Source: Magnetovibrio sp.
Lineage (GTDB): Bacteria > Pseudomonadota > Alphaproteobacteria > Rhodospirillales > Magnetovibrionaceae
Assembly: GCA_028281525.1 (NCBI GenBank)
Contig: JANQJR010000042.1
Location: forward strand, 1 to 48,143
Length of the DNA stretch: 48,143 nt
Direction of reading: 5' to 3'
The translations under genes were made by a program, and so were the position numbers. The stretch's first letter is position 1, and each line of letters opens with the position of its first letter. This document shows, piece by piece, positions 21,880 to 40,596 of this stretch. Under the pieces are notes generated by a model, which saw only the letters and a list, made by a program, of their open reading frames with translations, made no database searches and was not told where the DNA came from.

Positions 21880-21940
21880 CCGTTAAACCGATCAGACTCT
21901 TTGGCGCTTCGCCAAACTCAAGTCTTTGGAGGACAAAGAG

Positions 21941-22171: not shown

Positions 22172-24510
22172 GCGACAAATTTGTAATTGGTGTGGTGGGC
22201 AATCCCAACTCGGGAAAGACCACTTTGTTCAATGCCATGACCGGCGCGAAGCAGCGGGTCGGCAACTGGCCGGGCGTGACCGTGGAGCGCAAGGTCGGCG
22301 CCTATCAACACGACGACGTCAGCTACGAGGTGATCGACCTACCCGGGACCTATTCTCTAGACGTGACCAACGAGGATATTTCCCTGGATGAAAAGATTGC
22401 GCGCGATTTCGTGCATGCTAACGAGGCCGATGTCATCGTCAATATCGTCGACGCCTCGAACTTGGAGCGCAATCTCTATCTCACCGCCCAGTTGATCGAA
22501 ATGCGCAAACCCATGATCGTGGCGCTCAACATGATGGATGTGGCCGAAGCCATGGGGGTCAAGGTCGATGTCGCGGGCATGGCGGACAAACTGGGCTGTC
22601 CGGTGGTGCCGGTGGTTGCGGTGAATCAGAACGGTGTGCCGGAACTGAAAGATGCGGTAGCCGAGGCGGTGAAAACCAAGCCGGTTTCCGCTGCGAAAAT
22701 CGCCTATGACGATTCTTTGGAGACGGCGATTACCGGGCTTATGGCGCAAGTGCAATCGACGGCCGACGCGGCTGGTGCGAATTCCCGGTGGCTGGCCGCG
22801 CGTCTTCTGGAAGGGGATGGCCTGGCGCGCCGTTTGGCTGGGCCTTCGGTGGTTTCCGACGAAGCTTTGGCGGAGTCTCAGTCGAACTTGAGCGAGGACG
22901 TCGATATTCTTCTCGCGGATGGGCGTTACGGCTTCGCCAATTCGGCGGCGCAAGCGCATGCGAAGAAAGCGGCCAAGGTGTCGCGCAATATCTCGGATAA
23001 AATCGACCGCGTCGTGCTCAACCGCGCGCTCGGTATCCCGATCTTTTTGGGGATGATGTATCTGATGTTCATGTTCACCATCAACATCGGCGGATCCTTC
23101 ATCGACTTCTTCGACATCTTCAGCGGCGCCATCTTCGTCGATGGTTTCGGGGCTTTGCTGGCAAGCTTGGGAATGCCGGATATTGGCGTGCTGTTGCTCG
23201 CCACCGGCATCGGCGGCGGCATTCAGGTGGTGGCCACCTTTATTCCGGTGATCGCCTTCCTGTATCTGTTCCTGTCGGTTCTGGAAGATTCCGGTTATAT
23301 GGCGCGGGCCGCCTTTGTCATGGACCGGGCCATGCGGGCCGTTGGCCTGCCGGGGAAATCCTTCGTGCCGTTGATCGTCGGTTTCGGTTGCAACATCCCG
23401 GCGATCATGGCGACCCGGACCCTGGAACAACACAGGGACCGCATCATGACCATCGTCATGGCGCCGTTCATGTCTTGCGGCGCGCGTCTGCCGGTCTATG
23501 CCCTGTTCGCCGCGGCATTCTTCCCCATCGGCGGGCAAAACATCGTGTTCGGGCTGTATTTGATCGGCATCGCCGTGGCGGTGCTGACCGGCCTGGTGAT
23601 GAAGAACACCATCTTGCAAGGCGAAACGTCGCCCTTCGTCATGGAGTTGCCCCCTTATCACATGCCGACGTTCAAAGGCGTGATGATCCGGGTTTGGGAC
23701 CGCACCATGTCCTTCGTGGTCAGGGCCGGTAAGATTATCGTGCCGATGGTTCTGGTGCTCAACGTCATGAATAGCATCGGCACCGACGGTAGTTTCGGCA
23801 ACGAAGACACCGAAAACTCCGTTCTGAGCGAGGTCGGCAAATCCATCGCGCCGGCGTTCTCCCCCATGGGTCTGGACGAAGAAAACTGGCCGGCCGCGGT
23901 CGGCCTGTTCACCGGTATCCTGGCCAAGGAAGCCGTAGTCGGCACCTTGGATTCCATGTACACCGCCATGGCCGAAGCCGAAGCGGCCGCGGCAGGGATT
24001 GTGGAAGAAGAAGAGCCGTTCTCTTTGATGGCCGGGATCACCGAAGCTTTTGAGACCATTCCGGCGAACCTAGGCGACGCCATGGGTACGTGGGCCGATC
24101 CGATGGGCATCAGCGTCGGTGATGTCAGCACCATCGATGCCGCGTCCGAGGAACAGGAAGTGGCGACGGGAACCTTCGGGGCCATGGCTGCGAAGTTCGA
24201 CGGCGCAGCAGGCGCCTTTGCGTACCTGTTGTTTATCTTGTTGTACTTCCCCTGCACCGCGGCTCTGGCGGCGGTTTACCGGGAAACCAACCTGGCATGG
24301 ACGGCATTCGTTGGTGCCTGGACCACGGGTATTGCGTACGTGATCGCGACGATTTCGTACCAATCGGCTATCTTCACCCGCGACCCGGTGTCGTCCGGGC
24401 TGTGGATTGCGATCATGGTCGGCATCTCCGTGGTGACGTTCGTCGGGTTGCGCATCTGGGGTTCGCGCGAACCTCAACCAGGCATGCCCGCGGCGGAAGG
24501 CAAAGCGTAG
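22168..24510 (+). CDS. feoB: FeoB ferrous iron transporter
   Basis: Inner-membrane Fe(II) transporter of 780 residues. The N-terminal G domain has G1 GNPNSGKTT (about residues 10-18), G3 DLPGTY and G4 NMMD, then a GDI-type helical domain to about residue 270. The membrane part has two Gate-like regions, with conserved cysteines in GFGCNIPA and FMSCGARLPVY. A loop of about 90 residues around 600-680 (acidic, then a DAASEEQEVATG segment) precedes the last helices, a common arrangement. ATG 22168 overlaps the second feoA. Followed by a strong hairpin at 24543-24573. Confidence 0.96.
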   Translation: MSDKFVIGVVGNPNSGKTTLFNAMTGAKQRVGNWPGVTVERKVGAYQHDDVSYEVIDLPGTYSLDVTNEDISLDEKIARDFVHANEADVIVNIVDASNLERNLYLTAQLIEMRKPMIVALNMMDVAEAMGVKVDVAGMADKLGCPVVPVVAVNQNGVPELKDAVAEAVKTKPVSAAKIAYDDSLETAITGLMAQVQSTADAAGANSRWLAARLLEGDGLARRLAGPSVVSDEALAESQSNLSEDVDILLADGRYGFANSAAQAHAKKAAKVSRNISDKIDRVVLNRALGIPIFLGMMYLMFMFTINIGGSFIDFFDIFSGAIFVDGFGALLASLGMPDIGVLLLATGIGGGIQVVATFIPVIAFLYLFLSVLEDSGYMARAAFVMDRAMRAVGLPGKSFVPLIVGFGCNIPAIMATRTLEQHRDRIMTIVMAPFMSCGARLPVYALFAAAFFPIGGQNIVFGLYLIGIAVAVLTGLVMKNTILQGETSPFVMELPPYHMPTFKGVMIRVWDRTMSFVVRAGKIIVPMVLVLNVMNSIGTDGSFGNEDTENSVLSEVGKSIAPAFSPMGLDEENWPAAVGLFTGILAKEAVVGTLDSMYTAMAEAEAAAAGIVEEEEPFSLMAGITEAFETIPANLGDAMGTWADPMGISVGDVSTIDAASEEQEVATGTFGAMAAKFDGAAGAFAYLLFILLYFPCTAALAAVYRETNLAWTAFVGAWTTGIAYVIATISYQSAIFTRDPVSSGLWIAIMVGISVVTFVGLRIWGSREPQPGMPAAEGKA

Positions 24511-25864: not shown

Positions 25865-26089
25865 ATGTCCGGACTGAACAAAGACACCGTTTTGCCCCTG
25901 CAGGCTTCGCAGGAAAACTTGACGAGCAGACCGTCGACATATGCCAATCGGCATCCGTCCTACGGTTACGTCCAAGATTCAACGCCCAACTTTGTCGACC
26001 GGTGGTTTTACACCATCCTCGTCGTTGCGGCCGCACTGTGGTTGGTCATGACATTTCCTTGGGTAATCAGCCTTTGGGTAGAGCTGTAG
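25865..26089 (+). CDS. Small single-helix membrane protein in the iron block
   Basis: A 74-residue protein with a polar N-terminal ~45 residues and one C-terminal membrane helix (FYTILVVAAALWLVMTFPWV). ATG 25865 is chosen for the GGAGAG just upstream; a longer version from 25802 is less likely. I do not recognise a family. The Fur box at 25607 and convergence with the ParA/lysine-rich operon suggest an iron-regulated accessory membrane component. Confidence 0.55.
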   Translation: MSGLNKDTVLPLQASQENLTSRPSTYANRHPSYGYVQDSTPNFVDRWFYTILVVAAALWLVMTFPWVISLWVEL

Positions 26090-26123: not shown

Positions 26124-26510
26124 CTACGTGCGGCTTTTCGCGAACAGAAAAATACCCGCTGCCAAAACGGCAAGAACGCCAAGCCCCAATGCAGCCTGCT
26201 TTGAAAGGGGAGGACCTCCTGCCCGGCTGCGCTGACGGTTGCGCTGCGGCTGGGGTGAGGACGCGCCATGGTCGGGTTTCGGCTTGGCGGTTGGCGGAGG
26301 CTTGGCTGCGGTCTGTTTGGTTGCGGTTTTCTTAGGGGCGGCCTTCTTCGCGGTCTTTTTCGCAGTCGCCGCTTTTGTCGCCGTCCTTTTGGCTGTGGTT
26401 TTCCCTGGCGCGCTTTTTCGCGCCGGAGCTGTTTTGGCCGTAGCCTTGCGGGCTGTGGCCTTTTTGGGCTCCTCCGCATCCGTCAGAGTCAGCTTTGCGC
26501 GTTTGGCCAT
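26124..26510 (-). CDS. Lysine/alanine-rich tail-anchored protein coupled to ParA
   Basis: A 128-residue protein in three parts: a short N-terminal peptide AKRAKLTLTD; a long region of Lys, Ala, Thr and Pro repeats (TAKKTAKKAAPKKTATK type), like histone H1 tails; and a C-terminal hydrophobic helix (LGLGVLAVLAAGIFLF) followed by KSRT, so a tail anchor. The start overlaps the parA stop by one base (TGATG), and AAGGAG lies upstream. Lys-rich tails bind DNA, polyphosphate or acidic surfaces. As direct partner of a ParA ATPase it could be the adaptor that tethers a membrane-bound cargo to ParA on the nucleoid. This is inference; no homologue is known to me. Confidence 0.6.
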   Translation of the reverse strand: MAKRAKLTLTDAEEPKKATARKATAKTAPARKSAPGKTTAKRTATKAATAKKTAKKAAPKKTATKQTAAKPPPTAKPKPDHGASSPQPQRNRQRSRAGGPPLSKQAALGLGVLAVLAAGIFLFAKSRT

Positions 26511-27142
26511 CACGTCCACTCCTTCTCAATCCATGTCCACAAGGCGACGATTTCCCCCGCGGCTTTGCCCTTGGGTTCGAATTCCGTCACCGCTTGACCG
26601 CCGATGAGTGCGTGTCCCATGGCCGCACGGTGGGCGATGGCGACGGGACAAATCTTCAGGCCATAACCGGTCAGGGCTTCACGCGCTTCGCGTACGATCC
26701 CGGCTTCACCAAAGCGGGTGGGCGGCGGGCAGGCGTTGAGCACAATGGATGCCGGGGCCGAAACCGATTTGACGATGTCCACCGACGCACCGATGGCATC
26801 CAAATCGAACGTTGCCGGGCGCGAGGGCACCAAGGTCAAATCCGCCGTCGCCGCCGCCGTACGTCCGGCCGGTCCAGCGTGGGGGGCCGTGTCGACGACC
26901 AGAATGTCCACACCGTCATTGGCGGCTTGTTTTTGCGCGGCGGCAAGTTTTGCGGCCGTGGCGGCGATGATCTCTGGCCGATCGTCTTGGCGACGAAGGT
27001 TCCAGGTCACGGCGCTTTTCTGGGGATCGATATCCAACAGCACAACCCGTTTGCCTTTTTGGGCGGCGTGAACCGCCAAGTGGACCGCCAGGGTGGTTTT
27101 GCCCGTTCCGCCTTTCTGGGCCAACAGCGTCAGCGTTTTCAT
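26510..27142 (-). CDS. ParA/MinD-family ATPase
   Basis: A 210-residue ATPase with the deviant Walker A motif QKGGTGKTTL (signature lysine K10, catalytic K15), switch II DTAPHAG and Walker B-like LLDIDPQ. The small size fits cargo-positioning ParAs (McdA- or PpfA-like), not chromosomal ParA, which are longer. ATG 27142 gives MKTLTLLAQ; an upstream extension lacks family character. It is the fifth gene of a six-gene minus-strand unit with a P-type ATPase, two small membrane proteins and an HMA-like protein. No parB is nearby; the coupled lysine-rich membrane protein may act as its partner. Confidence 0.85.
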   Translation of the reverse strand: MKTLTLLAQKGGTGKTTLAVHLAVHAAQKGKRVVLLDIDPQKSAVTWNLRRQDDRPEIIAATAAKLAAAQKQAANDGVDILVVDTAPHAGPAGRTAAATADLTLVPSRPATFDLDAIGASVDIVKSVSAPASIVLNACPPPTRFGEAGIVREAREALTGYGLKICPVAIAHRAAMGHALIGGQAVTEFEPKGKAAGEIVALWTWIEKEWT

Positions 27143-27211
27143 ACTTCGAAACCTCCCCCCCATCGAATGACTTGTCCCGGTCGGCCCAACGGAAACGCGC
27201 AAAAAAGGTAG

Positions 27212-29332
27212 TCAGTCCGCTGCCCGCGTTCCGACCAGAGAACGCAACAAGGTGCCCACCGTGGTGCCGTTATGCAGCAGAGAGGACACCACCGGCGACG
27301 TCCAGCCCATGGACGCGGCCAGGAACAGGCCGGAATTCACCCCCACGGCGATGTTGAAGTTGGATTTGATCAGCTTCATGGTCGCGGTGCTGAGCTTGCG
27401 GACCTCGACGATCTCTTCCAACCGGTCGTCTGTGAGAATGACATCCGCGCTGGCCTGGGCAATGTCCGCGCCTTGCGGCATGGCGATGCCCACGTTGGCG
27501 TTGACCAGGGCGGGCGCGTCGTTGACGCCGTCGCCAACGAAGGCGACGGTGCGGCCCTGGTCCTTCAGTTTCAGGACGATGTCGGCTTTATCCTCGGGTT
27601 CCAACTCGGCGTAAACTTCGTTGATGCCCAGCTCTTGCGCCAAGGCCTCGGCCTTGGCCCTGCGATCCCCGGTGAGGATCGCAATATTCTGAATACCTTG
27701 CGTCCGCAATGCTTGAACGATGCCTTGCGCTTCGGGACGGAGACGGTCGCGCAGGCCCAAGATGCCGACCAGCTTTCCGTCCACGGCGGTATAGAGAAGG
27801 ATCAGACCTTCTTGTTCCATTTCGTGGATGTGTTTTTTGTGCCGCGCGACCTTGATGCCTTCGTGCTCTTCGAGGAAGTGGCGGCTGCCGATGACCACGC
27901 GTTTGTCATTGACTTCGCTGACCAGACCGTGGGCGACGATGAACTGCACATCCGAATGGCTGACGTGCGCCAGCTTTTCGTCGCGCGCTTTGGTCACCAC
28001 GGCGTGTGCGATGGGATGCGTGGAATGCTCTTCAATGGACGCCACCAACGCCAACAGTTCATTGGCGGGCCAGGTTTTCGGTGCGACGCTGCGCACGTCG
28101 ACCACATCCAGCTGACCGTATGTGAGGGTGCCGGTCTTGTCGAAGATGATGGTGTCGACCTCGGCCATGCGTTCGATGGCGCCGCCGCCCTTGATCAAGA
28201 TGCCCTGTTTGGCCCCCTTGTACATGGTGGACTTCATGGCCACGGGCGTGCCCAATTTCAGCGCACAGGAATAGTCCACCAGGAACACGGATGCCAAACG
28301 CGTCAGGTCGCGGGTGATGAGGAACGTGAGCGCGCCAAGCCCCAACGTGATCTTGATGCGTTGATTGGCTTCCTTTTCCGCGCGGATTTGGGTTTCCGAT
28401 TTGGTTTCCAGGGATTCGCGGATGAAGCGGGAAATGCGCGCCGTGGTGGTGTCGTCGCCGACCAGCACGGCGCGGATGCGCAGCCGCCCTTCCTCAACGA
28501 TGGTGCCGGACATGACGCGCGCTTGCGTTTCCTTGCGCACCGGCATGCTTTCGCCGGTGATGGTGGACTCGTTGACCAGGGCGGTGCCGGAAACGACTTG
28601 GCCGTCGGCAACGATGGTTTCGCCCGGCCCGACGACGACAATGTCGTTGGGCTGCAGGTCGTCCGTCGCCATTTCGATCAGTTCGCCGTCGACCTCGACC
28701 CAGGTCTTGGCCGGGGCGGGATGGAGGAGCTGGCGCAGCAGATCGGTGGAGGTGTCACTGGTCCAGGCCTCCAGCTGCTCACCCATGTGAATGAGAAAGT
28801 CCGTGCTGAGCGCGGTGAACCAATCGCCACGCGACGCGGCCAGACCGACAGCGACGCCGTCGAGCACTTCCACCGTGACGCCCCGGGTCAACAGGGACGT
28901 GACGCCTTCCAGGATCGTCGGTGCGATCACCACGCCCATGACGGCGGTTCTCAGCGCCGGCGGCATGAACGGTGTTGCCGCCAACGCCATGCCGCTCAAG
29001 GCCATATGGAAGAAGTGCCGCCCATCGGTATTGGCCACCAGCCTCGGCGCGGCGGCAGGATCCAATCGGTCCAAACGTTCGAGCACCAGGGCCTTGGTTG
29101 CCGGCCGCCCATCGTAGGTGACGATGATGGATTTGGCGTGTGGGTTGATGCGCACGGACTTGACGCCGTCCATACGTTCCAGGATCGAGGCGAAATAAGT
29201 CTTATCGCCGTTGGTGATATTCAACCACTTGAGCTTCACCCGCAACCGGCGGGGAAGTTCATGGACGATATGTACGTGATCGTACACGGTAGCGGCGATG
29301 ATCGCGTCCGTCGGCGGGTCTGGATTGAGCAT
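27212..29332 (-). CDS. P1B-type metal-transporting ATPase (FezB/CtpC-like)
   Basis: A 706-residue heavy-metal ATPase. The N-terminal domain (about residues 20-85) is HMA-like but has HELPRRLRVKLK in place of the CxxC loop. Then come paired helices, the actuator motif TGES, the ion-site helix DYSCALKLGTP (S-C where CPC is usual), DKTGT with D398, HP in STHPIAHA, GDGVND, and a last helix with HNGTT. The ion-site variant and modified HMA fit the P1B group that includes mycobacterial CtpC and ferrosome FezB, for which Mn, Zn or Fe have been proposed. With feo and Fur boxes around it, iron is my best guess. Follows the YtxH-like gene by 32 bp. Confidence 0.88.
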   Translation of the reverse strand: MLNPDPPTDAIIAATVYDHVHIVHELPRRLRVKLKWLNITNGDKTYFASILERMDGVKSVRINPHAKSIIVTYDGRPATKALVLERLDRLDPAAAPRLVANTDGRHFFHMALSGMALAATPFMPPALRTAVMGVVIAPTILEGVTSLLTRGVTVEVLDGVAVGLAASRGDWFTALSTDFLIHMGEQLEAWTSDTSTDLLRQLLHPAPAKTWVEVDGELIEMATDDLQPNDIVVVGPGETIVADGQVVSGTALVNESTITGESMPVRKETQARVMSGTIVEEGRLRIRAVLVGDDTTTARISRFIRESLETKSETQIRAEKEANQRIKITLGLGALTFLITRDLTRLASVFLVDYSCALKLGTPVAMKSTMYKGAKQGILIKGGGAIERMAEVDTIIFDKTGTLTYGQLDVVDVRSVAPKTWPANELLALVASIEEHSTHPIAHAVVTKARDEKLAHVSHSDVQFIVAHGLVSEVNDKRVVIGSRHFLEEHEGIKVARHKKHIHEMEQEGLILLYTAVDGKLVGILGLRDRLRPEAQGIVQALRTQGIQNIAILTGDRRAKAEALAQELGINEVYAELEPEDKADIVLKLKDQGRTVAFVGDGVNDAPALVNANVGIAMPQGADIAQASADVILTDDRLEEIVEVRKLSTATMKLIKSNFNIAVGVNSGLFLAASMGWTSPVVSSLLHNGTTVGTLLRSLVGTRAAD

Positions 29333-29364
29333 CAATTGCCAACCTTGTTCAGGAGTGACCTTAT

Positions 29365-29607
29365 TTAGGTGGCCGTTTCCCCGGTGGCGGTCTCTTCGGT
29401 GTCGTCTTCGGTGGCCACTTCGGCTTCGGCGTCATAGAAGCGTTCCTTCGCTTCTTCGATACCGGAACGCACACCGTTCACGGCGGTCGCCGCCGTTTTG
29501 AAAATGGCGTCCTGAACGGACTTGTTGGTCAACACGTATGTGGCTGCAGCTCCGATAACCATGCCGCCCCAAAAGCCGTTGGAACGGATAAAAGGTAAGT
29601 AATTCAT
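29365..29607 (-). CDS. Small YtxH-like membrane protein with acidic tail
   Basis: An 80-residue protein: a glycine-rich membrane helix (FWGGMVIGAAATYVLTN) as in YtxH-type proteins, an amphipathic segment, and an acidic tail (EVATEDDTEETATGE). AGGAG lies before ATG 29607. Small membrane proteins with acidic tails are a feature of iron-mineral compartments such as magnetosomes, but this is only an analogy. It sits between the MamC-like gene and the P-type ATPase in one operon. Confidence 0.6.
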   Translation of the reverse strand: MNYLPFIRSNGFWGGMVIGAAATYVLTNKSVQDAIFKTAATAVNGVRSGIEEAKERFYDAEAEVATEDDTEETATGETAT

Positions 29608-29664
29608 GTCGATCTCCTATCACATCAGTGAGTATTTCTGTGTTCCCGCTTGCAGGGGCTTGGC

Positions 29665-30066
29665 TCAGCCGGCGGCTTCGGCTTCAACTTCGACTTCGAT
29701 TTGCGCCGCACCGGCCTCTTCGACTTCTTTTTGTTGGGTCGCCTTGCGCGCGGACGCCAGAACGCCAATGCCCACCGCCGCCAAGGCGGCGAACCCGATC
29801 ACAGGGTGAACACGCACGACGTGCGCCGCCACGGATGCAGCGGCCATGGTACCCGCGCTCATCGCGCCGGAATTGAGGGTGTCTTGCACCGCTTCTTCCT
29901 CGGTGATTTCACCGGCCTTCACCTTGCCATAGTTGGTCACGCCGCTGGTCGCCATGCCCAGGATGGCGCCGAATGCGCCGGCGCTGGCGATGGTCGATGC
30001 CGGTGGGAAGAAATCCCCCGTCCGGGGCCTGTTCTTCATGGCGTCTTGAAACAATGAATATGCCAT
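29665..30066 (-). CDS. MamC-like two-helix membrane protein, copy 1
   Basis: A 133-residue protein with two glycine/alanine-rich hydrophobic segments (about 28-45 and 72-105) joined by a polar loop, GKVKAGEITEEEAVQDT. The same pattern, with AGAFGA before and SVAAHVVR after the loop, occurs in the 34468-34905 protein. Magnetosome protein MamC has a similar layout (two helices, a loop containing IT-x-x-EA-x-x-DT and an acidic end); this similarity is recalled and judged by eye. The C-terminus is acidic (EVEEAGAAQIEVEVEAEA). AAAGGA precedes ATG 30066. Likely a membrane component of an iron compartment. Confidence 0.6.
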   Translation of the reverse strand: MAYSLFQDAMKNRPRTGDFFPPASTIASAGAFGAILGMATSGVTNYGKVKAGEITEEEAVQDTLNSGAMSAGTMAAASVAAHVVRVHPVIGFAALAAVGIGVLASARKATQQKEVEEAGAAQIEVEVEAEAAG

Positions 30067-30105
30067 TTTTGTATCCTTTCCATGCGGCCAAACGCTGGGC
30101 TCGAC

Positions 30106-30426
30106 TTAGCTTTCCAAACGCTTCAAGACCAAGCGTGCGGCCTCTTCGTCCGGGCCAAAAAACGTATCCCACTCCCCGGCGCCGATGCGGGTCTTGTCGT
30201 AGGCGATCACGATGCTCAGCGCCATGGGATTGACCCTAATGTCTTCAATCCCGCTTAGGGACTCCACCCACGCCTCCAGCTTGCGGGCTTCTCCGTTCGC
30301 GAATTTCTGGATCGCGCCCTTGGCGACTTTCAAACGCAGCCGACCGGGGACATGGTGCGCCACTTTGAGAAACGAACGGTAGTTCAGCCAGTCCGCTTCG
30401 GGGTCTGGTGCCTTGGAAACGCTCAT
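30106..30426 (-). CDS. HMA-like small protein without CxxC (FezC-like)
   Basis: A 106-residue protein with a ferredoxin-like heavy-metal-associated pattern: a strand with VAHHVPGRLRLKV, a helix with WVESLSGIEDIRV, and a strand ALSIVIAYD. The metal loop GMxCxxC of classical HMA domains is replaced by H-V-PGR-L-R. The same motif is in the P-type ATPase N-terminus and in the 35134 protein. This type (HMA_2-like) accompanies ferrosome ATPases. First gene of the minus-strand operon. The Shine-Dalgarno is weak, so the start is approximate. Confidence 0.7.
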   Translation of the reverse strand: MSVSKAPDPEADWLNYRSFLKVAHHVPGRLRLKVAKGAIQKFANGEARKLEAWVESLSGIEDIRVNPMALSIVIAYDKTRIGAGEWDTFFGPDEEAARLVLKRLES

Positions 30427-30909
30427 GCATGGGGCCCTAAGTCAAAGATCGTTCAATTTGTAACCAGATAACCAAGCGTGTTGTGTCATCTTTTTGTAAT
30501 GGTATATTCTCAATTGAAATGCGTCAATAAGTCATTGATTTTAAATGTGAAAATCATTATCAATGAAAATTGCGTCGCATTTGCAACAAAGGTCAGCACC
30601 GCAGCAATTGCGAGCAATTCTCAACTTGATGCGGCGAACGTCAAGTTAAATCTCAACGATCCATAGACTTTTGCTTGGCGCATTTCTGACAGGGCGCGTT
30701 TTGGATATTGCGAATGGTTCTCAACAATGCTTTGATCGGGGCCGTTCGTTTCGCTAGGGTCGGATCGTCTTAGGTGGGATCACGTTCGTGTTTCCGCCTA
30801 AGACGTGAATCCGTCCCTAATCTACGTGTTAGAGGGCGATACACGGATGAGGTTGGCGCTCATATACATCACCCTCATCCGATCGCACTCTAGAGCAGGA
30901 GGCTTAAGC
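30427..30909. promoter_or_regulatory. Divergent control region with three Fur-type boxes and a REP-like palindrome
   Basis: No convincing gene in 483 bp. Three iron-box-like sites are seen: AAAATCATTATCAATGA (30550-30566), TTGCGAGCAATTCTCAACTT (30608-30627) and TTGCGAATGGTTCTCAACAA (30708-30727). They lie between the divergent minus-strand operon (HMA-like to lysine-rich protein) and the plus-strand peptidase gene, so both sides are probably iron-controlled. From 30813 on the stretch is occupied by a repeat element described separately. Confidence 0.6.
30813..30893 (+). repeat. REP-like palindromic repeat, copy 1
   Basis: An 81-bp element, 90% identical (73 of 81) to the inverted copy at 43679-43759. 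The core hairpin is CGGATGAGG with CCTCATCCG, against CGGATTAGG with CCTAATCCG in the other copy: a paired change that keeps the stem. Extended arms (TTAGAGGGCGAT and ATCGCACTCTAG) pair again outside. Typical of repetitive intergenic palindromes of alphaproteobacteria. Confidence 0.8.
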
Positions 30910-33840
30910 GTGCCGAAAAACAACCTGCGTTCCGCTGTGATGGTGACCGCACTCGGCCTGTCCGCGCTGGCGGTGCAGCCTGCGTCCGCATCCCAGGAGA
31001 TGTTGCTCGACAACGTGCGGCAATTGACCTTCGAAGGGCGGCGCGCCGGCGAAGGGTATTTCAACGCCGACGGGACCAAGATGATCTTCCAGTCGGAGCG
31101 GAACAGCGACAATCCGTTTTATCAAATCTATCTGATGGACCTGGAAACCGGCGATGTGGAGCAGATCTCTCCGGGTGTTGGTCGTACAACCTGTGCCTGG
31201 ATCCATCCGGCCGGTAACAGGATTCTCTATTCTTCGACCCATGACGATCCGGAGGCGCGGCGCAAGATGCGTGCGGAAATCAAGGAGCGCCTTTCCGGCA
31301 AGGCCCGCCGTTACACCTGGAGCTATGATTTCGCCTATGAAATCTATGCACAGGATCTGGAAACCGGAAACCGGACCAATCTCACCAACGTGACCGGTTA
31401 CGATGCAGAAGGTTCCTATTCCCCCGACGGCCAATGGATCGCCTTCGCTTCCAACCGCCGGGCGTACACCGAAAAGATGACCGAGGCCGAAGCCAAGCTG
31501 TTCGAACACGACTATGCGGCAATGATGGACATTTACCTGATGCGCGCCGACGGCACTCAAGTGGAGCGTCTGACCACGGCGCTGGGATACGACGGCGGGC
31601 CGTTTTTCAGTGCAGACGGCAAGTTCATCACGTGGCGGCGGTTCTCTGAAAACGGTGCCAGCGCCGAGATTTACACCATGGATTTAGCGACCCGCACGGA
31701 AAAGCGTCTCACCCATATGGGGCATATGTCTTGGGCGCCCTATTTTCACCCCAGCGGTGACTACTTGATTTTCGCGACCAACCAGCAAGGCTATGCCAAT
31801 TTCGAACTGTTCCTCGTCGACGCGGCGGGCATGCGTGAGCCGGTGCGCGTGACGTACACCGACGGGTTCGACGGCCTGCCGGTGTTTTCGCCGGACGGCC
31901 AAAAGCTATCGTGGACGTCCAAGCGCACCGCCAACAAGACCAGTCAGATTTTTTGGGCCGACTGGAACGACGCCAAAGCGCGTGAACTCTTAGGCCTAAA
32001 CGCATCCGCGGATGCGCCCGCAGCCGAACCCCAAACCGATACGCTGGCCGGCACCATCGCCGCCATCCGTGCCAAGGACGTCAAGCGTCATGTCGTGGCC
32101 CTGACGTCTGACGACATGGAAGGCCGTCTCACCGGAACACCGGGCGAGCGGCGCGCAACAGCTTACGTCAAGGACGCGTTTGAGCGCTTGGGGCTGGTGC
32201 CTGCGGGCGACGATGGCGGGTGGTACCAGGCGTTTTCCTTCACGGCGGGTGCGCGGTTGGGAACGGGCAATACGCTGACTGTCGAGGGTGTTTCGAAAAC
32301 GCCGGTGCTCGATCAAGATTGGCGACCCTTGGCCTTGTCGCGCAACGGCAATGTGGATGCGGCCGACGTGGTCTTCGTGGGCTACGGGCTTAAGGCTCCG
32401 GGCACGGGCGAAATTGCGGATTACGATTCCTACGGGGATTTGGACGTCGCCGGCAAATGGGTAATGATGTTGCGCTTCCAGCCGGAAGACGTCGAACCGA
32501 AACGCCGCCGCCACTGGCTGCATTATTCCGATCTGGCTTACAAAGCTTCGGTCGCCAAAGGCCTGGGGGCGAAGGGCGTCATTTTCGTGTCCGGCCCGCA
32601 CGCCAAGACCAAGCAGCAACTGATCGATCTGAATCGCGATACCGCCACGGCGGGCACGTCGCTGGCGGGGATTTCCATCAGCGACGATTTGGCCGATCGC
32701 ATGCTCAAGGCGTCCGGCAAGTCTTTGGACGCGTTGCAGAGCGCCTTGGATAAGGGCGACGCCGTTTCCGGCTTTGCCCTCAAGGACGTTCAGGTGAGCG
32801 CCGTTTTAAACATCGAACGCCAGGCCAGACGGGGCCGCAACGTGTTGGCGAAGCTGGAAACGGGTGCATCCTCGGACCAGGCCCCGGTCATCATCGGGGC
32901 GCACATCGACCACTTGGGGCGGGGAGAGGCCGCCGGCTCGCTTGCGCACGCGGACGAAGACGGGGCCATCCATCCCGGCGCGGACGACAACGCATCCGGA
33001 ATCGCAGCGTTATTGGAGGTCGCCCAATACCTGACCGACCAACAGCGCGCCGGAAAGCTCAAGGCCAAGCGCGACATCTGGTTCGCCGCGTGGTCGGGCG
33101 AAGAACTGGGCACGTTGGGCTCCACTCACTTCGTCGAAGAACTGGGCAAACAAGTGGGCGGATACGGTTACCTCAAAGGCAAGATCGCGGCGTATCTGAA
33201 CATGGATATGATCGGGCATTTGCGCGATCAGGTTTTCCTGCAGGGCACCGGCTCCAGTTCCGTGTGGGCGCGCGAAATCGAACGGCGCAACGTCCCCGTG
33301 GGCCTAGCCATTCAGACCCAATCCGATCCCTATTTGCCCACCGATGCCACACCTTTTTATATGAAGGGGGTGCCGGTCTTGAACGCCTTCACCGGCGCGC
33401 ATGAATATTATTCGACGCCACGCGACACCGCGGACAAACTGAACTACGACGGCGCGCGCGACATCGCCCGCTTGATGGCCGGCATCACACGCTCGCTCGC
33501 CAAAGCGGACGCGGTGCCGGACTATATCGAGGTCGCGCGCAAAAAAGGCGGTATGTCGCGCAAGCATTTACGCGCCTATCTCGGCACCATCCCGGCCTAT
33601 GGGCAGGACGACAGCGTCAAAGGCGTGAAACTGCAGGGCGCGGTCAAGGGCGCACCGGCCGAAAAGGCAGGTGTGCAAAACGGCGACATCCTGGTCGGCT
33701 TGGCTGGCGTCGACATCGAAACCATCCACGATTTCATGAACGCACTGGGTGGCCTGAAAGTCGGCGAAAGCACAATCTTGAAGGTTCAGCGGAACGGTCA
33801 GATCGTCGACCTGACGGTCATGCCGGGAACGCGGGAATGA
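30910..33840 (+). CDS. Secreted M28-family aminopeptidase with TolB-like propeller and PDZ domain
   Basis: A 976-residue exported protein. Signal peptide: MPKNNLRSAVMVTALGLSAL, then AVQPASA. Residues about 30-370 have WD40-like TolB repeats (SPDGQWIAF, SADGKFITW, SPDGQKLSW). A Zn-peptidase of M28 type follows, with GAHIDHLG, HPGADDNASG, SGEELG, NMDMIG and a late GAHEYYSTP, all five metal or catalytic stretches present. A PDZ domain ends the protein (GAPAEKAGVQNGDILVGL). The start is GTG 30910 with AGGAGG seven bases upstream; frames beginning earlier translate the repeat element. It likely degrades peptides in the periplasm. Its place in the iron block is unexplained. Confidence 0.88.
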   Translation: MPKNNLRSAVMVTALGLSALAVQPASASQEMLLDNVRQLTFEGRRAGEGYFNADGTKMIFQSERNSDNPFYQIYLMDLETGDVEQISPGVGRTTCAWIHPAGNRILYSSTHDDPEARRKMRAEIKERLSGKARRYTWSYDFAYEIYAQDLETGNRTNLTNVTGYDAEGSYSPDGQWIAFASNRRAYTEKMTEAEAKLFEHDYAAMMDIYLMRADGTQVERLTTALGYDGGPFFSADGKFITWRRFSENGASAEIYTMDLATRTEKRLTHMGHMSWAPYFHPSGDYLIFATNQQGYANFELFLVDAAGMREPVRVTYTDGFDGLPVFSPDGQKLSWTSKRTANKTSQIFWADWNDAKARELLGLNASADAPAAEPQTDTLAGTIAAIRAKDVKRHVVALTSDDMEGRLTGTPGERRATAYVKDAFERLGLVPAGDDGGWYQAFSFTAGARLGTGNTLTVEGVSKTPVLDQDWRPLALSRNGNVDAADVVFVGYGLKAPGTGEIADYDSYGDLDVAGKWVMMLRFQPEDVEPKRRRHWLHYSDLAYKASVAKGLGAKGVIFVSGPHAKTKQQLIDLNRDTATAGTSLAGISISDDLADRMLKASGKSLDALQSALDKGDAVSGFALKDVQVSAVLNIERQARRGRNVLAKLETGASSDQAPVIIGAHIDHLGRGEAAGSLAHADEDGAIHPGADDNASGIAALLEVAQYLTDQQRAGKLKAKRDIWFAAWSGEELGTLGSTHFVEELGKQVGGYGYLKGKIAAYLNMDMIGHLRDQVFLQGTGSSSVWAREIERRNVPVGLAIQTQSDPYLPTDATPFYMKGVPVLNAFTGAHEYYSTPRDTADKLNYDGARDIARLMAGITRSLAKADAVPDYIEVARKKGGMSRKHLRAYLGTIPAYGQDDSVKGVKLQGAVKGAPAEKAGVQNGDILVGLAGVDIETIHDFMNALGGLKVGESTILKVQRNGQIVDLTVMPGTRE

Positions 33841-33940
33841 CCTCCGGGACCCATTGAATAAGACGTGGCAATCCACAAGGGATCGCATATCTACACACGG
33901 ACCTTCACCGCGATTTTTGACTTCGGAACGTATCAGCACC

Positions 33941-34267
33941 ATGAACAAAATGGATAACCCAACATCCCCTTCGAAACCGGCCGCCCCTAAGGCCGCAACC
34001 ACGAAAACTACAGCTCCCAAGACCGTAGCCAAGGGCGGCGATGCGAAAGCGGGCATCGATACGGGCACGCTCACGGTCGGGGGATTGTCCGTCGCCATCG
34101 GCACGCTGCTCTATACCGGGTTCATGCGTCCCGGCGGTTGGAAAAAGCTTCACGTCGGCGCGGGTTTGGCGCTAACGGGTTTGGCGCTGTGGCATGCCTC
34201 GCAACAGGCCACTCACCGCCGCAAGGCCTTGGTGAAAGCCAAACGCGCGGCGCGTGAACAAGCTTAA
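33941..34267 (+). CDS. Small two-helix membrane protein with Lys/Ala/Pro-rich N-terminus
   Basis: A 108-residue protein. The N-terminal ~40 residues are rich in Lys, Ala, Thr and Pro (APKAATTKTTAPKTVAK), like the tail of the 26124 protein. Two hydrophobic segments follow: LTVGGLSVAIGTLLYTGFM and LHVGAGLALTGLALWHA, the second with a His at each end that could bind haem, then a basic C-terminus. I do not recognise the family; the helix pair recalls DUF4405/cytochrome-b-like hairpins, with low certainty. First of four small plus-strand genes after the peptidase. Confidence 0.5.
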   Translation: MNKMDNPTSPSKPAAPKAATTKTTAPKTVAKGGDAKAGIDTGTLTVGGLSVAIGTLLYTGFMRPGGWKKLHVGAGLALTGLALWHASQQATHRRKALVKAKRAAREQA

Positions 34268-34467
34268 TCGGTGAACCCAGACCAAGGTCTGAAAACACGG
34301 TTCGTTCAAAGAACAGAAAACATTGGACGGAGTCGAAAAAATGGCCGATCATATTTATTCAGACCTTTGAAACTGCTGAATAAAATGATGTTGTGTTGCA
34401 GTCGCAATGTACGTGGGAAACACCACGGAAGCGATTGAAAACGACAAGAACAACAAGGATTTCAGCC

Positions 34468-34905
34468 ATGGATCAAACGGAAACATCCCCCTTGCCCCCC
34501 CTCGATACGGTTGTTCAAGCCGGTGCCTTCGGCGCCGTGTTGGGTGGCGTGACGTCCGGCGTGATGGAAGCCGCGCGGGTGCGCCATGGGGACATCACGT
34601 CCCGCCAAGCGGTTGAGCATGTCGCGAAAAACACGGCGCAAAGCGCCGTGACCATGGCCATCGCATCGGTTGCCGCCCATGTGGTGCGCGCCCATCCCAT
34701 CTTCGGTTACATCGCATTGGCGGGTGCCGGGGTGGGCGCGGTTATGATGTTGACTGCCCCGAAGAAACAAGCCCGGAAGGTCAACGACGATGAAGATCGG
34801 AGTGTCGTCGACCCCACCGACCTGCCCGAGGACCCGCCGACCACGACGGCCAAAGCCGCCAAAACCGCTGCGCGCGGACCTGCGGCCGCCGGAAAACCTG
34901 CCTGA
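34468..34905 (+). CDS. MamC-like two-helix membrane protein, copy 2
   Basis: A 145-residue paralogue of the 29665-30066 protein. Shared features in order: AGAFGA(V/I)LG, TSGV, a loop with V-x-x-G-(D/E)-IT, AV, then SA-x-TMA-x-ASVAAHVVR and HP-(I/V)-x-G. This copy lacks the acidic end; instead it has a mixed acidic then Lys/Ala-rich tail (TTTAKAAKTAARGPAAAGKPA). ATG 34468 follows AAGGAT. Two opposite-strand paralogues either side of the peptidase gene suggest duplication within the block, with tails specialised differently. Confidence 0.6.
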   Translation: MDQTETSPLPPLDTVVQAGAFGAVLGGVTSGVMEAARVRHGDITSRQAVEHVAKNTAQSAVTMAIASVAAHVVRAHPIFGYIALAGAGVGAVMMLTAPKKQARKVNDDEDRSVVDPTDLPEDPPTTTAKAAKTAARGPAAAGKPA

Positions 34906-35068
34906 ACACTTAACGCCGCGACGACACATAAGCAAAGACCCATTCCCACCTGTCTCAGCACCTTAAGGCATGAGAACCGGAAACGAGCACGGCCCATTAT
35001 CCGTGCTCGTGTATGCGCGGACAGTCCAGGGTGTGCCGGTTCAAAAAAACTTCACTTGCCAAACGTTA

Positions 35069-35091
35069 TTAAGAATGGTTATTAATTGCAA
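35069..35091. promoter_or_regulatory. Fur-type operator before the second HMA-like gene
   Basis: The reverse strand reads TTGCAATTAATAACCATTCT, nearly the same as TTGCAATTAATAATCATTTG at 25607. It is about 43 bp upstream of the HMA-like gene at 35134, so iron repression of that gene and the ferritin-like gene behind it is likely. Confidence 0.6.
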
Positions 35092-35133
35092 CAACAGTGT
35101 GACAACCCCGCTTTCATATCGGAGACGCCGCCC

Positions 35134-35523
35134 ATGGGCCGCAGCGTACATCACATTCCCGGACGGGTTCGCTTTAAGATTTCGGATTTGCGCGACAGCA
35201 CGACGCTTGCTGGGGCGTTACGCAAAGGTCTGGAAAGCATGCCTGGGGTGAAATGGATTGAGATTCGTCCCGCATCTTCTTCGTTGATCGTGCACTACGA
35301 ACCCCGTTTAACCGATGTAAAGGCCCTGGTTGCCTTCATCGAAGGGGAGGAAGCCCGCGCGCATGGCGAAGCCGTGAATATGCTTGTTGATTTGATCAAC
35401 GCCGACAACACCGTCGCCAAATCCGTGCGTCACGTCGGCTTAGTGTTCGGCAAGACCGCGTTCCGCGTGGCTTTGGAGCAGGTGGTGATGGGCGGCTTCC
35501 GGGCCGCCATGGCGCGCACCTGA
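35134..35523 (+). CDS. HMA-like small protein without CxxC, second copy
   Basis: A 129-residue protein beginning MGRSVHHIPGRVRFKISDL, with the H-I-PGR-V-R motif, helix LRKGLESMPGVKWIEI and strand SSLIVHYE of an HMA-like fold lacking the cysteine pair. About 55 more residues form one or two helices (VRHVGLVFGKTAFRVALEQ), possibly membrane-associated. ATG 35134 is preferred over the upstream TTG at 35086, since a GGAG lies nearby. The ferritin-like gene starts 16 bp after its stop. Probable partner of the P-type ATPase. Confidence 0.7.
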   Translation: MGRSVHHIPGRVRFKISDLRDSTTLAGALRKGLESMPGVKWIEIRPASSSLIVHYEPRLTDVKALVAFIEGEEARAHGEAVNMLVDLINADNTVAKSVRHVGLVFGKTAFRVALEQVVMGGFRAAMART

Positions 35524-35539
35524 TTTTCCAGCCATCTCC

Positions 35540-36106
35540 ATGAGCCTCGACCAAGCCACCGTTGCCGCCCTCATCGAAGCCCTGGAAGACGAATACAAAG
35601 CCCGCGCCACCTATGCTGCGGTGATCGAAAAATTTGGCTTGGTGCGGCCGTTCGCCAACATCATCAGGGCCGAGGACCGCCATGCGGCAGCGTTGGAACG
35701 CATTTTTTCCGATCACGCCATGCCTCTGCCCGAAGACCGTTGGCTTGGCAACATCACCGCCCCGGACAGTTTGGAGGCGGCCTGCGAGGCGGGCGTCACC
35801 GGCGAAATCGAAAACAAAGCCATGTACGACCGCTTGATGGCAGCCACATCCGACGAACGGGTGTGGCGGGTTTTTGATAACCTGCGCCGCGCTTCTCAGG
35901 AAAACCATCTGCCAGCTTTTCAACGGGCCTTGGCGCGAAGCAGCGATGACATATCCGAATTCGGTTATGGAAAAGGGTGCACCGGGAGTGCAAAACGCAG
36001 CAACCGGCACGACGGTGCTCAGATCGGGGAGCATCAGCTTGGACGCAGTACGGGTCAATCCAGGGCTCATCGAGGCCATGGGGGCCGACATATGGCGCGG
36101 CTATAG
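35540..36106 (+). CDS. Ferritin-like (DUF2202-type) diiron protein
   Basis: A four-helix ferritin-fold protein. Helix 1 has LIEALEDEYKARATY, helix 2 RAEDRHAAALE with the E-x-x-H diiron motif, helix 3 GEIENKAMYDRLM, and helix 4 ASQENHLPAFQRAL. This order matches DUF2202 proteins. Up to about residue 143 the sequence is convincing; the last ~45 residues (RSNRHDGAQIGEHQLG and on) look unlike the family. The +1-shifted frame there reads more protein-like (VRVNPGLIEAMGADIW), so a frameshift is possible. It would store or oxidise iron. Last gene before the right end sequence. Confidence 0.75.
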   Translation: MSLDQATVAALIEALEDEYKARATYAAVIEKFGLVRPFANIIRAEDRHAAALERIFSDHAMPLPEDRWLGNITAPDSLEAACEAGVTGEIENKAMYDRLMAATSDERVWRVFDNLRRASQENHLPAFQRALARSSDDISEFGYGKGCTGSAKRSNRHDGAQIGEHQLGRSTGQSRAHRGHGGRHMARL

Positions 36107-37790: not shown

Positions 37791-39071
37791 CTATTCCGCA
37801 GCGTAAAGATGTCTAGGTTTGGGTTTCGCGGAAGCCGCCTTGCGGCGTGTCGCGGCCCAGTCCCACATCCCGACTTCGTCGCGAATGTCCCGGCAGACTT
37901 GGATGACCCGCTCCAGGTCCGCATCGCTCAAGCCGCAGTTGACCGTGAAGCGGACCATGGCCCGTTTTTTCGGGGTCGCCGGGGCGCAGAAGACCGCACC
38001 GAACACGCCCCGGGTTTCCAGGGCGTCGCGCAACCGGATCACGTCGGCTTCGGTTCCGGCTTCCAACCCGATGATCTGGGCCTTGCTGTCCGAAACGTTG
38101 TAGCCCATTTCATCCAAGGCACCCGTGAGAATGCGGTGATTGGCGTGCAGCCGCTCCCGCCGCCATGCCTCCGTCTGGATGATATCGAGCGCGGCGTCGT
38201 AGCCAGCGACCTCATGGGGCAAAACCGTGGTGCTGAAGATCATCGGGAAGGCTTCGTAACGGAAAAATTCCATATTCCGCGCGGAGCCCAACACCACCCC
38301 GCCCCGGCTGGCGACCGCCTTGGACATGCCCACGGTGCGGAAATGTATGCGATCCGCCAGGCCGAGGGACACGGCCAAGCCCTCGCCGTTCGGGCCCAAC
38401 GTTCCGAAGGAATGGGTCTCATCGACCACCAGGATGCACCCTGTACGTTCAGCCACCGCGACCACATCGGCCAGGGGGCAAATGTTTCCGGTGGTGCTGT
38501 AAAGCGCATCGACCACGATGATGCCCGGTCCATACTTACCGACTTGGCGTTCCAGGTGAAACGGGTCGTTGTGCCGGAACGGTCTGGCGACAGCCCCCGA
38601 ATTCGGCACGCCTTCCCAGAGCGATGCGTGCGCGCGCATATCCAGATAGACCGGCGTTCCTTCGGGCGCAATGGCCTGGATCAAGCCGCTGTTGGCGCTG
38701 TAGCCCGACATGCAGAGAACCGCGTCCTCGGCGGCCATGAATTGGGCGATGCGCCGTTCGAAGGTTCGCAATGGACTTTCGTGGCGATGGAGGAATATTC
38801 GGGAGACGGATTGGCCATGGCCGAATTGGCGCAGGGCCTCGATCTCCGCCTCCACGATCCTCGGATCGGCCGCCAGACACAGATAGTCGTTGGTGTGCAT
38901 TTGGATGGCGTTCGGGGGCGGGGTTCGCCCACTTAACGTATGACCGATCCAGTGGCCGTGCGACCAGTCCGGAAAGCTTTTCTCCCGGACGACGCGGAAA
39001 AACGCCGGATCTTCAGGGTGAAGGGCGGCCTTTTGGCCGGATGCGTGTTGTGTGTTTTGTGAGTTTAGCAT
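37791..39071 (-). CDS. cqsA: Alpha-hydroxyketone autoinducer synthase (CqsA/LqsA family)
   Basis: A PLP enzyme of the alpha-oxoamine synthase family that makes long-chain alpha-hydroxyketone or amino-ketone signals (CAI-1 in Vibrio, LAI-1 in Legionella) from an acyl-CoA and an amino-acid-derived substrate. Features matching CqsA: NDYLCLA, SGYSANSGL, HASLWEGV, YGPGIIVVDALYST, VDETHSFGT, the PLP lysine in GMSKAVASRGG, and RGVFGAVFCAPATPKK. 426 residues, slightly longer than VcCqsA (389) through N- and C-terminal extensions. The HASLWEG segment favours CqsA over KBL, BioF or ALA synthase. Divergent from the kinase gene, giving the synthase-sensor-regulator set. Confidence 0.9.
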   Translation of the reverse strand: MLNSQNTQHASGQKAALHPEDPAFFRVVREKSFPDWSHGHWIGHTLSGRTPPPNAIQMHTNDYLCLAADPRIVEAEIEALRQFGHGQSVSRIFLHRHESPLRTFERRIAQFMAAEDAVLCMSGYSANSGLIQAIAPEGTPVYLDMRAHASLWEGVPNSGAVARPFRHNDPFHLERQVGKYGPGIIVVDALYSTTGNICPLADVVAVAERTGCILVVDETHSFGTLGPNGEGLAVSLGLADRIHFRTVGMSKAVASRGGVVLGSARNMEFFRYEAFPMIFSTTVLPHEVAGYDAALDIIQTEAWRRERLHANHRILTGALDEMGYNVSDSKAQIIGLEAGTEADVIRLRDALETRGVFGAVFCAPATPKKRAMVRFTVNCGLSDADLERVIQVCRDIRDEVGMWDWAATRRKAASAKPKPRHLYAAE

Positions 39072-39285
39072 GGTTAAGTCTCCTCTTTGATTACCATTGG
39101 GAGACTTAGATTAGGTCACGTAACCATAAATGGCATGGATTGGCTGAACGCCTGCCTTATCCATGATAGTGTCCTCGCGGCGAACGTGCCCACGAATAGT
39201 ATGGTTTTATCATTTTGAGGCGCAGTTTACCGTATTGCAGGCGAACTTGTTTTTCGAATACGGGATCAAATACGGGAATGATGTG

Positions 39286-40596
39286 ATGGACATGGCACAC
39301 CGGGCATGGGGGAGAACGCTTGAAGCGTTTGCGTGGGTCAAGGGGCGCTATCTCAACGGGTTCGAATTTATGAAATTCCACCTCATCGGCTTGCTCGGTG
39401 TCAGTGGTTTCCCCTTGTTTTATTTCATATGGAACGACCTCTACCCCCAGCCTTACGAAAACCTCTGGTTGCGCCTTTTCCTCGCCGGACTGTGCGGGGT
39501 GTTCTTGTTCACCAGCTATTTCCCCCCCCGGATACGCGCGTACGTACCGCTTTACGCCTACATCACCGTTGTTTTGGCTTTGCCGTTCTTTTTCACCTTC
39601 ATGCTGTTGAAAAACGACGCCAACGCCGTTTGGCAAATGTCAACGATTTGCGCGGTGGTTTACGTGATTTTGATTTTCGATACCGTCAACATGCTGGTTG
39701 CTTGGGTCGCGGGAACCGTTCTCGCCGTCATATCTTTTGCTTTGACGTCGGACGGCGTGGCGATCCCACAGGGGGCTCTGACCGGGGTGCCGGTTGTTCT
39801 GTTCGCTTTTGCTGGAGGGCTTCTCTTCAGTCATGGAGAAGAGATCACGAAATATAAGCGGCGTATGCAGACGGTCGCGGCGTTGGGCAGCAGCATCGCT
39901 CACGAAATGCGTACGCCGTTGCTCGGCATCAAATTGGATGCCGAAGGCATGCGCCGCAAGCTGTCCCGGGCGGCGGACGGCCATATCCAGCCGCGGGATG
40001 TTGAGGTCCTGAGCACCGCCGTCGACAGGATCGAGCGTCAGGTCGTGTTCGCCAACACCGTGATCGATATGCTTTTGACGAATGTCCGCCAGGAAAAGAT
40101 CGACCCGGCAACCTTCCAACATCATTCCATGGCCGGAATCGTCGAACAAGCCTTGGACCGTTATCCCTTCAAAGCGGACCAAAAGGATAAGATTACGTTG
40201 GATCTCCAGCGCGATTTTCGGTTCTTTGGTTCCGACATCCTGATGATCCATGTTCTGTTCAACTTGTTGAAGAACGCCTTGCGGGCGATTGCCGCGGCCA
40301 ATCGCGGGGAGATATCCATCCGCCTGGAAGCGGGCGAATCGGACAACCGATTGATTTTCCTCGATACCGGAACTGGGATCGCGCCGGACGTCTTACCCCA
40401 TATTTTCGACAGGTTCTTCACGGGCTCCGAAACCTATAGCGGCGCCGGTATTGGGTTGTCGTTATCAAGGCGTGTCATTCATGGGTTCATGGGGACCATT
40501 GCGTGTACGTCGGAATATGGTAAGTTTACGGAATTTACAATTTCACTACCTGTATCTCAGGGGGGCCCGGAACAGGATGCACGTTCGCAATACTGA
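39286..40596 (+). CDS. cqsS: CqsS/LqsS-type membrane sensor histidine kinase
   Basis: A 436-residue inner-membrane sensor. The first ~185 residues have six membrane segments with the CqsS-type signature GVSGFPLFYFIW and YPQPYENL, the autoinducer-sensing module. H206 lies in the H-box SSIAHEMRTPLLGIK; the ATPase part has the N-box NLLKNALRAI, G1 DTGTGIAPD and G2 GAGIGLSLS. Vibrio CqsS has a receiver domain at the end; this protein lacks it, as LqsS does, and the regulator is a separate protein. I choose ATG 39286; an earlier ATG at 39163 would add 41 residues without family character. It overlaps the regulator gene by 20 bp. Confidence 0.85.
   Translation: MDMAHRAWGRTLEAFAWVKGRYLNGFEFMKFHLIGLLGVSGFPLFYFIWNDLYPQPYENLWLRLFLAGLCGVFLFTSYFPPRIRAYVPLYAYITVVLALPFFFTFMLLKNDANAVWQMSTICAVVYVILIFDTVNMLVAWVAGTVLAVISFALTSDGVAIPQGALTGVPVVLFAFAGGLLFSHGEEITKYKRRMQTVAALGSSIAHEMRTPLLGIKLDAEGMRRKLSRAADGHIQPRDVEVLSTAVDRIERQVVFANTVIDMLLTNVRQEKIDPATFQHHSMAGIVEQALDRYPFKADQKDKITLDLQRDFRFFGSDILMIHVLFNLLKNALRAIAAANRGEISIRLEAGESDNRLIFLDTGTGIAPDVLPHIFDRFFTGSETYSGAGIGLSLSRRVIHGFMGTIACTSEYGKFTEFTISLPVSQGGPEQDARSQY

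Follow-up and report, generated by a model that had tools for sequence, protein, structure and literature searches.

We examined a stretch of 48,143 nucleotides from Magnetovibrio sp. (contig JANQJR010000042.1 of assembly GCA_028281525.1, 3.58 Mb in size), hereafter referred to as the window, and within it a block of genes at positions 26124–36106. An earlier note on this DNA had read the block as a ferrosome-like cluster, i.e. as genes for a membrane-bounded iron store, and all the parts named there are indeed present in the sequence. The genes form two divergent arms, which flank a promoter region carrying a Fur-type box. Our main finding concerns a pair of small two-helix proteins in the block: from profile and tree comparisons, the two-helix protein common to fez-type (ferrosome) gene sets is a homologue of the magnetosome protein MamC. 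The block itself is very probably a ferrosome cluster of an alphaproteobacterial subtype. Its features are as follows.

30106–30426, minus strand: HMA_2 protein a (PF19991, 7.7e-8, 32.9 bits, cut-off 30)
29665–30066, minus strand: MamC-like two-helix protein 1 (alignment; groups with locus L020)
29365–29607, minus strand: YtxH-like protein with a single transmembrane segment and an acidic EEAKER-type helix (alignment)
27212–29335, minus strand: FezB-type P1B6 ATPase with an N-terminal HMA_2 domain (profiles, motifs, tree)
26510–27142, minus strand: ParA-type ATPase (AAA_31, 1.1e-16)
26124–26510, minus strand: Lys/Ala/Thr-rich, histone-H1-like protein with a C-terminal helix (HC2, 3.1e-6, 27.9 bits, below the cut-off of 40)
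30543–30567, no strand: overlapping Fur-type boxes (14/19 and 13/19) in the divergent promoter region
30811–30892, no strand: copy of a dispersed repeat, between the promoter region and the peptidase gene
30910–33840, plus strand: PD40 beta-propeller, M28 peptidase and PDZ protein (M28 5.8e-39, PD40 1.3e-31, PDZ_6 9.3e-8)
33941–34267, plus strand: FezC-like two-helix protein with two conserved His (DUF4405, 0.027, below cut-off)
34468–34905, plus strand: MamC-like two-helix protein 2 (alignment; groups with Magnetospira locus L041)
35134–35523, plus strand: HMA_2 protein b with a C-terminal helix (PF19991, 3.3e-8, 34 bits)
35540–36106, plus strand: DUF2202 ferritin-like protein (PF09968, 27.3 bits, cut-off 22)

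Start codons probably lie later than in the list of open reading frames for ParA (27142, some 70 bases after the ATPase), for the M28 peptidase (30910), whose listed frame takes a false N-terminus from the repeat, and for the genes at 33941, 34468 and 35134.

The ATPase and its companions in related loci

The large pump of the left arm matches the E1-E2_ATPase family (3.6e-39) and a heavy-metal P-type ATPase model (511 bits). Its ion helix reads DYSCALKL, so that the S-C seen in the earlier note is confirmed, and its last helix carries HN; both are marks of the P1B6 class. Among 84 relatives, the ion helix holds S-C in 70, A-C in 13 and T-C in one, with no case of CPC, and HN is kept in all 85 fez-type rows, window included. 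The pump is the single ATPase of such kind in its own genome (next match 234 bits, versus 1532). Likewise, in 10 named genomes (four are Shewanella) the ATPase of the set is the sole member of its class, the next match reaching at most 248 bits.

For the ATPase tree, 46 rows were used: the window, 31 of the 84 fez-type relatives (thinned for readability) and 14 others, with no named FezB from D. magneticus, R. palustris, S. putrefaciens or C. difficile among them. The 32 fez-like rows all fall on one side of a branch supported at 100/98, which all 200 bootstrap trees contained. The sister of the window ATPase comes from a Methylocystaceae metagenome-assembled genome (locus L020; 100/100, 64% identity), and the two group with Magnetospira, Sneathiellales, Rhodospirillales and Defluviicoccus loci (99/99). 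CtpC and DUF6110-linked types lie outside the fez-like clade, inside a wider group (100/98), and Cd-type and Cu-type pumps, as well as the two other pumps from the window's genome, stand farther out. The phylogeny called for in the earlier note thus places the window ATPase with those of fez-like sets and apart from the DUF1490/PacL-linked CtpC exporters. Two observations on individual pumps may be added: a second, divergent P-type ATPase adjoins the fez-type cluster of locus L116 (2938–5217) and forms a long branch near the CtpC types, and in-frame stops were flagged in the fez-type ATPase matches of two genomes (L085 in G679, L093 in G682).

These placements bear on a first alternative, namely an efflux platform of the PacL/CtpC kind, in which the YtxH-like protein would scaffold the ATPase and excess metal would be exported, without any organelle. 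The YtxH-like protein at 29365–29607, for which a scaffold role is proposed here as well, does have the build of PacL and of the DUF1490 and DUF6110 partners, i.e. one transmembrane segment and an acidic helix beside a P1B ATPase with HN. In passages of PMC9374683, HN is given as a P1B6 feature, DUF6110 proteins are paired with P1B6 ATPases, and PacL1 and CtpC are described as clustering in membrane foci. Moreover, the DUF6110-linked ATPases carry S-C as the window does, and both they and the DUF1490-linked ones share the wider group with the fez-like clade. However, CPC (ACPCAVGL) stands in the ion helix of the DUF1490-linked CtpC types, which also have HN, and they fall outside that clade. 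Neither the two DUF1490 loci nor the surroundings of the two DUF6110 loci, both from Deinococcus, yielded a match to MamC-like, YtxH or separate HMA2 proteins, and none of the four holds a FezC-like gene. The Fur-type box and the adjacent Feo genes also point to iron. Such a platform is therefore an unlikely account of the block.

Related loci were retrieved by scanning contigs with a 118-residue piece of the ATPase, and the best 80 of 383 were used; the selection was made by the ATPase alone, the small genes playing no part in it. None of these 80 comes from D. magneticus, R. palustris, S. putrefaciens or C. difficile, several are short contigs, two (L033 and L035) belong to one metagenome-assembled genome, and they do not represent independent species. 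Within 7 kb of the ATPase, a YtxH-like gene was found in 78 of 80 loci, a MamC-like gene in 74 and a separate HMA2 gene in 65, followed by FeoB (13), FeoA (7), FezC-like (7) and DUF2202 (6) genes. The loci counted had also served to refine the MamC and YtxH models used. Unrefined models, for which the window and four loci on plasmids supplied the sequences, detected YtxH in 78, MamC in 71 and HMA2 in 69 of the 80 whole loci, against 0, 0 and 1, respectively, in 76 control loci (354 kb versus 1289 kb; some overlap, and the FeoB region of the window is among them). DUF2202 was found in 7 of 80 whole loci and in none of the 76 controls. The small genes thus accompany the ATPase in other genomes, as the earlier note had proposed to verify, and together with the ATPase class they support its reading of a ferrosome-like cluster. 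We accordingly abandoned the MamC-like pair as a novelty of the window, which that note had taken it to be: a MamC-like protein is a usual part of the set. Profiles of YtxH, MamC-like, HMA2 and S-C ATPase proteins together provide a marker set for finding such clusters.

Gene order is also partly conserved. The closest relative, L020, gathers FeoB, DUF2202, HMA2, MamC, YtxH, ATPase, HMA2 and FezC-like genes in about 10 kb. In Azospirillum, six genes stand in a row (HMA2 fused to a FezC-like part, HMA2, a hypothetical gene, MamC-like, YtxH, ATPase). In Shewanella, Vibrio, Photobacterium and other gammaproteobacteria, a divergent HMA2 gene faces HMA2, a long YtxH, MamC, YtxH and the ATPase. Just beyond this divergent gene, Vibrio, Photobacterium and Shewanella loci encode a protein of about 145 residues with a Lys-rich start (L068, 5515–5949; L085, 5421–5855; L092, 5420–5854; L093, 5594–6040), which is possibly another part of the set. 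The ferritin-fold protein of the earlier note proved to be of the DUF2202 family; it is 35% identical to its counterpart in an Arcobacter cluster, and in three loci (L023, L024 and L047) DUF2202 sits between the small genes and the ATPase.

The three HMA-like domains are those of protein a, of protein b (35086–35523 as listed) and of the ATPase N-terminus (1.5e-6), the latter reaching 28.7 bits in one scan, against a cut-off of 30, and 30.8 in the genome-wide search. They are the only matches of the genome at E of 0.001 or below. As previously noted, none of the three contains CxxC; two Arg (R-x-R) are invariant in the alignment. The earlier note had expected FezC to be an HMA protein, a view we dropped, as FezC is presented in part of PMC11334425 as a DUF4405-like, heme-binding cytochrome. 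The counterpart of FezC in the window is more likely the protein at 33941–34267, a small helical membrane protein like the DUF4405 cytochromes, with a weak match to that family (15.4 bits, cut-off 26.7). The relatives behave similarly, all below cut-off: Arcobacter 0.008, Magnetospira 0.038 (for which cytochrome b561 scores better, 0.0035) and the HMA_2-fused form of Azospirillum 0.046, whereas the window protein is a free two-helix protein. A His pair, H-x13-H in the window, is kept in all 11 aligned FezC-like proteins.

Homology of the two-helix proteins with MamC

The two MamC-like proteins, recognized in the earlier note as paralogous two-helix proteins, are 41% identical to each other. 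Against the NCBIfam MamC model NF038051 they obtain only 0.005 and 0.009 (17.1 and 16.3 bits), below the curated cut-off of 100, and the genome as a whole gives no match at 1e-3. Three lines of comparison link the two families:

The MamC model matches in 19 of 120 genomes of the order, 15 of them above cut-off. Among those below it, the matching gene adjoins a fez-type ATPase in three genomes (G490, 9e-10; G436, 5e-8; G478, 1e-5), and in a further one (G470) the match is a MamC piece, the short contig carrying it having no fez-type genes. With the Shewanella and Vibrio sets, the model reaches 6e-4 and 4e-5; it gave no match at 0.01 in the genomes of L020, L032, L041 and L062.

Conversely, a profile made from 92 fez-side sequences recovers all 14 of the MamC proteins taken, at 1e-11 to 2e-18.

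Profile–profile comparison of the fez two-helix family with MamC yields 98.8% over 93 columns; four controls, made with other families of small membrane proteins, gave 0.4–18.5%.

These comparisons argue for common descent of the fez-set two-helix protein and magnetosome MamC (Mms13), likewise a two-helix membrane protein; the window proteins are to be regarded as homologues of the MamC family and not as members of NF038051 as curated. In a tree including 30 of the 92 fez-side sequences, the 14 MamC proteins form one branch (100/99), and both window proteins stand on the other side of it, in a family encoded beside fez-type ATPases. Protein 1 groups with L020 (97/83) and protein 2 with L041 (96/85). 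These different nearest relatives disfavour a recent local duplication, and hint that the two arms differ in history or origin. As the tree is unrooted, with long rows and weak deep forks, it is silent on which organelle came first. In the consulted parts of PMC12713370 and PMC12199438, no connection is drawn between a ferrosome protein and MamC. The homology provides a lead to the job of the two-helix protein, at a vesicle or mineral surface, and connects two iron organelles in evolutionary terms.

Only the genome of the window itself, among 18 of its family, encodes the two-helix protein, and in 385 genomes of the class at least four have a match to the profile: the same genome, one with a fez-like set (G018) and two weak ones whose flanks, inspected by eye, show no ATPase; up to 11 candidates were scored per genome, hence an undercount. 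A plasmid search with a single two-helix protein as query returned nothing, a profile being required. Within the genus, MamC is found above cut-off in two genomes (G012 and G016) and is absent from a third (G000), so that the genus probably includes magnetotactic species. The genome of the window, without a MamC match, has the probable ferrosome cluster instead.

One could hence suspect a degenerate or incomplete magnetosome island, with the MamC-like pair as its remnant, a view to which the above-cut-off MamC of the two congeneric genomes and the homology itself would lend themselves. We give this explanation practically no credit and dropped it: the tree places both proteins outside MamC, on the fez side of the branch, the genome gives no match to the MamC model at 1e-3, and the neighbours are fez-type genes.

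Iron regulation and the ferrosome reading

The Fur-type boxes of the earlier note were recovered. The best one in the block (14/19, 30543–30561) precedes the left arm by about 120 bases, and this region may serve the right arm too. Over the whole window, five positions reach 14/19, where 30 local shuffles give 0.43 on average; the highest score, 16/19, is found outside the block, at 20745, before a Fur gene. Among relatives, a box of at least 14/19 occurs within 500 bases of the operon start in 20 of 75, the frequency elsewhere being 0.027 per 500 bases.

Another alternative, detoxification through a P1B6 pump that exports iron, the small proteins being accessories and ferritin-like storage purely cytosolic, would fit the DUF2202 protein encoded here and in the relatives mentioned above, and ferrosomes themselves are described, in part of PMC12748827, as serving both storage and detoxification. 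Yet a Fur-type box would turn the pump on at low iron, the wrong sense for detoxification, and the published organelle maker is the same kind of gene set. We therefore judge this alternative very unlikely.

Ferrosomes were named only in 2022, and R. palustris and S. putrefaciens reportedly make them with a six-gene fez operon in which FezB is a P1B6 ATPase (Grant et al. 2022). The R. palustris genes are listed in a section of PMC12016538 as six, RPA2333–2338, and part of PMC6879726 reports that rpa2333–2338 drop in low light, along with many iron genes. The sets of R. palustris, S. putrefaciens and D. magneticus share with the window a link to iron and, to judge from the Shewanella relatives, a P1B6 ATPase with small membrane proteins and HMA genes. 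The window differs from them by its two MamC-like genes, its split arms and the addition of ParA, Lys-rich and M28 peptidase genes.

Several points weigh against the assignment. The link to fez is drawn from the ATPase class, the gene set and the gene number in other species, and the six-gene fit holds only if the divergent gene is counted, since the gammaproteobacterial loci have five genes one way and one divergent (eight re-examined, six of them Shewanella). No long YtxH-like gene was found in the window, whose gene set is interrupted by an unrelated peptidase. Every DUF4405 match falls below cut-off, the block's box does not exceed 14/19, and a comparable one stands near the operon start in just over a quarter of the relatives. 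Finally, two Deinococcus DUF6110-linked ATPases outside the fez-like clade also display S-C and HN (DISCVLKI, LLHNAST), so that these motifs mark P1B6 and not fez as such. Because the gene-number fit is soft, we lowered our confidence in the ferrosome cluster by a small step; it remains high.

Families, clade, synteny, the relation of the two-helix proteins to MamC and the Fur-type box are read directly from the sequence. Starting from these, we infer iron as the substrate, vesicle formation, heme binding, regulation and the roles of all the small proteins. When iron is short, Fur would release the promoter region and both arms would be transcribed. The YtxH-like and MamC-like proteins would collect the ATPase in a patch of inner membrane, which would develop into a vesicle. 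With the HMA_2 domains serving it, the ATPase would move ferrous iron imported by Feo into this vesicle. The DUF4405-like protein with its two His, as FezC counterpart, would transfer electrons, allowing iron to be stored and released. On the cytosolic side, iron would be handled by the DUF2202 ferritin-like protein.

Local additions and neighbouring genes

The earlier note had also regarded the ParA pair and the peptidase as new to such systems, and this part of its claim stood: neither ParA nor M28 genes were detected within 7 kb of the ATPase in any of the 80 loci. Both were rejected as general fez parts. A search of 297 genomes of the order gave 46% identity for the nearest relative of ParA, and six relatives lie in surroundings of 8–16 kb without fez-type genes; the peptidase has no full-length relative in the other 17 genomes of the family. 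On these comparisons, ParA and the peptidase appear to be local additions.

ParA scores 165 bits against NF041546 (cut-off 180), and the ATG of the Lys-rich gene overlaps its stop (TGATG). The Lys-rich protein, whose C-terminal helix was read by eye, presumably resembles PhaF and AlgP. In a screen restricted to fez loci, with cut-offs set by ourselves, six Lys-rich low-complexity reading frames were found in the window and 87 loci, each within about 1 kb of fez-type genes; five of the 87 relatives' loci have one. In L024, L025 and L047, the Lys-rich stretch makes up the tail of a YtxH-like protein encoded immediately behind the ATPase, and in L032 that of the MamC-like protein; in L021 it lies upstream, on the other strand. 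Since low-complexity sequence makes homology unsafe, our claim is limited to a recurring build.

In passages of the review PMC13052382, carboxysomes are given the ParA-type McdA, and nucleoid-bound granules PhaM, PhaF and AlgP; its table, as consulted, has no ferrosome entry. The window likewise holds a ParA and a Lys-rich histone-like protein, proposed as its partner from gene overlap and build; the six ParA relatives occur in contexts without fez-type genes. It is conceivable, though rather doubtful, that ParA and a tail-anchored, H1-like tether, encoded by the overlapping genes with which the operon ends, set the spacing of ferrosomes over the nucleoid and apportion them to the daughter cells; given the MamC homology, ferrosomes and magnetosomes would then be related in part, and each would possess a positioning system. 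The two genes in any case raise the question of whether ferrosomes are actively positioned and inherited.

Export of the M28 peptidase is predicted from its N-terminus. The gene after it follows closely, and this spacing suggests that the peptidase is probably transcribed with the right arm, a view on which the dispersed repeat, separating it from the promoter region, weighs. A second, inverted copy of this 82-nucleotide repeat (43680–43761) is 91% alike, and the repeat-derived peptide has seven further short matches elsewhere in the genome.

Outside the block, the neighbouring features are the following.

20979–21434, plus strand: Fur-family regulator (Pfam FUR 1.4e-35), with its 16/19 box upstream
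21634–24510, plus strand: FeoA, a second FeoA-like protein and the ferrous iron importer FeoB, adjacent to the block (translation; FeoB homologues in relatives)
25865–26089: between Feo and the block, a small protein with one C-terminal hydrophobic helix and no Pfam or NCBIfam match
37791–41623: an aminotransferase-like gene resembling that of the autoinducer synthase CqsA, followed by genes like those of a histidine kinase and a response regulator (from translation only)

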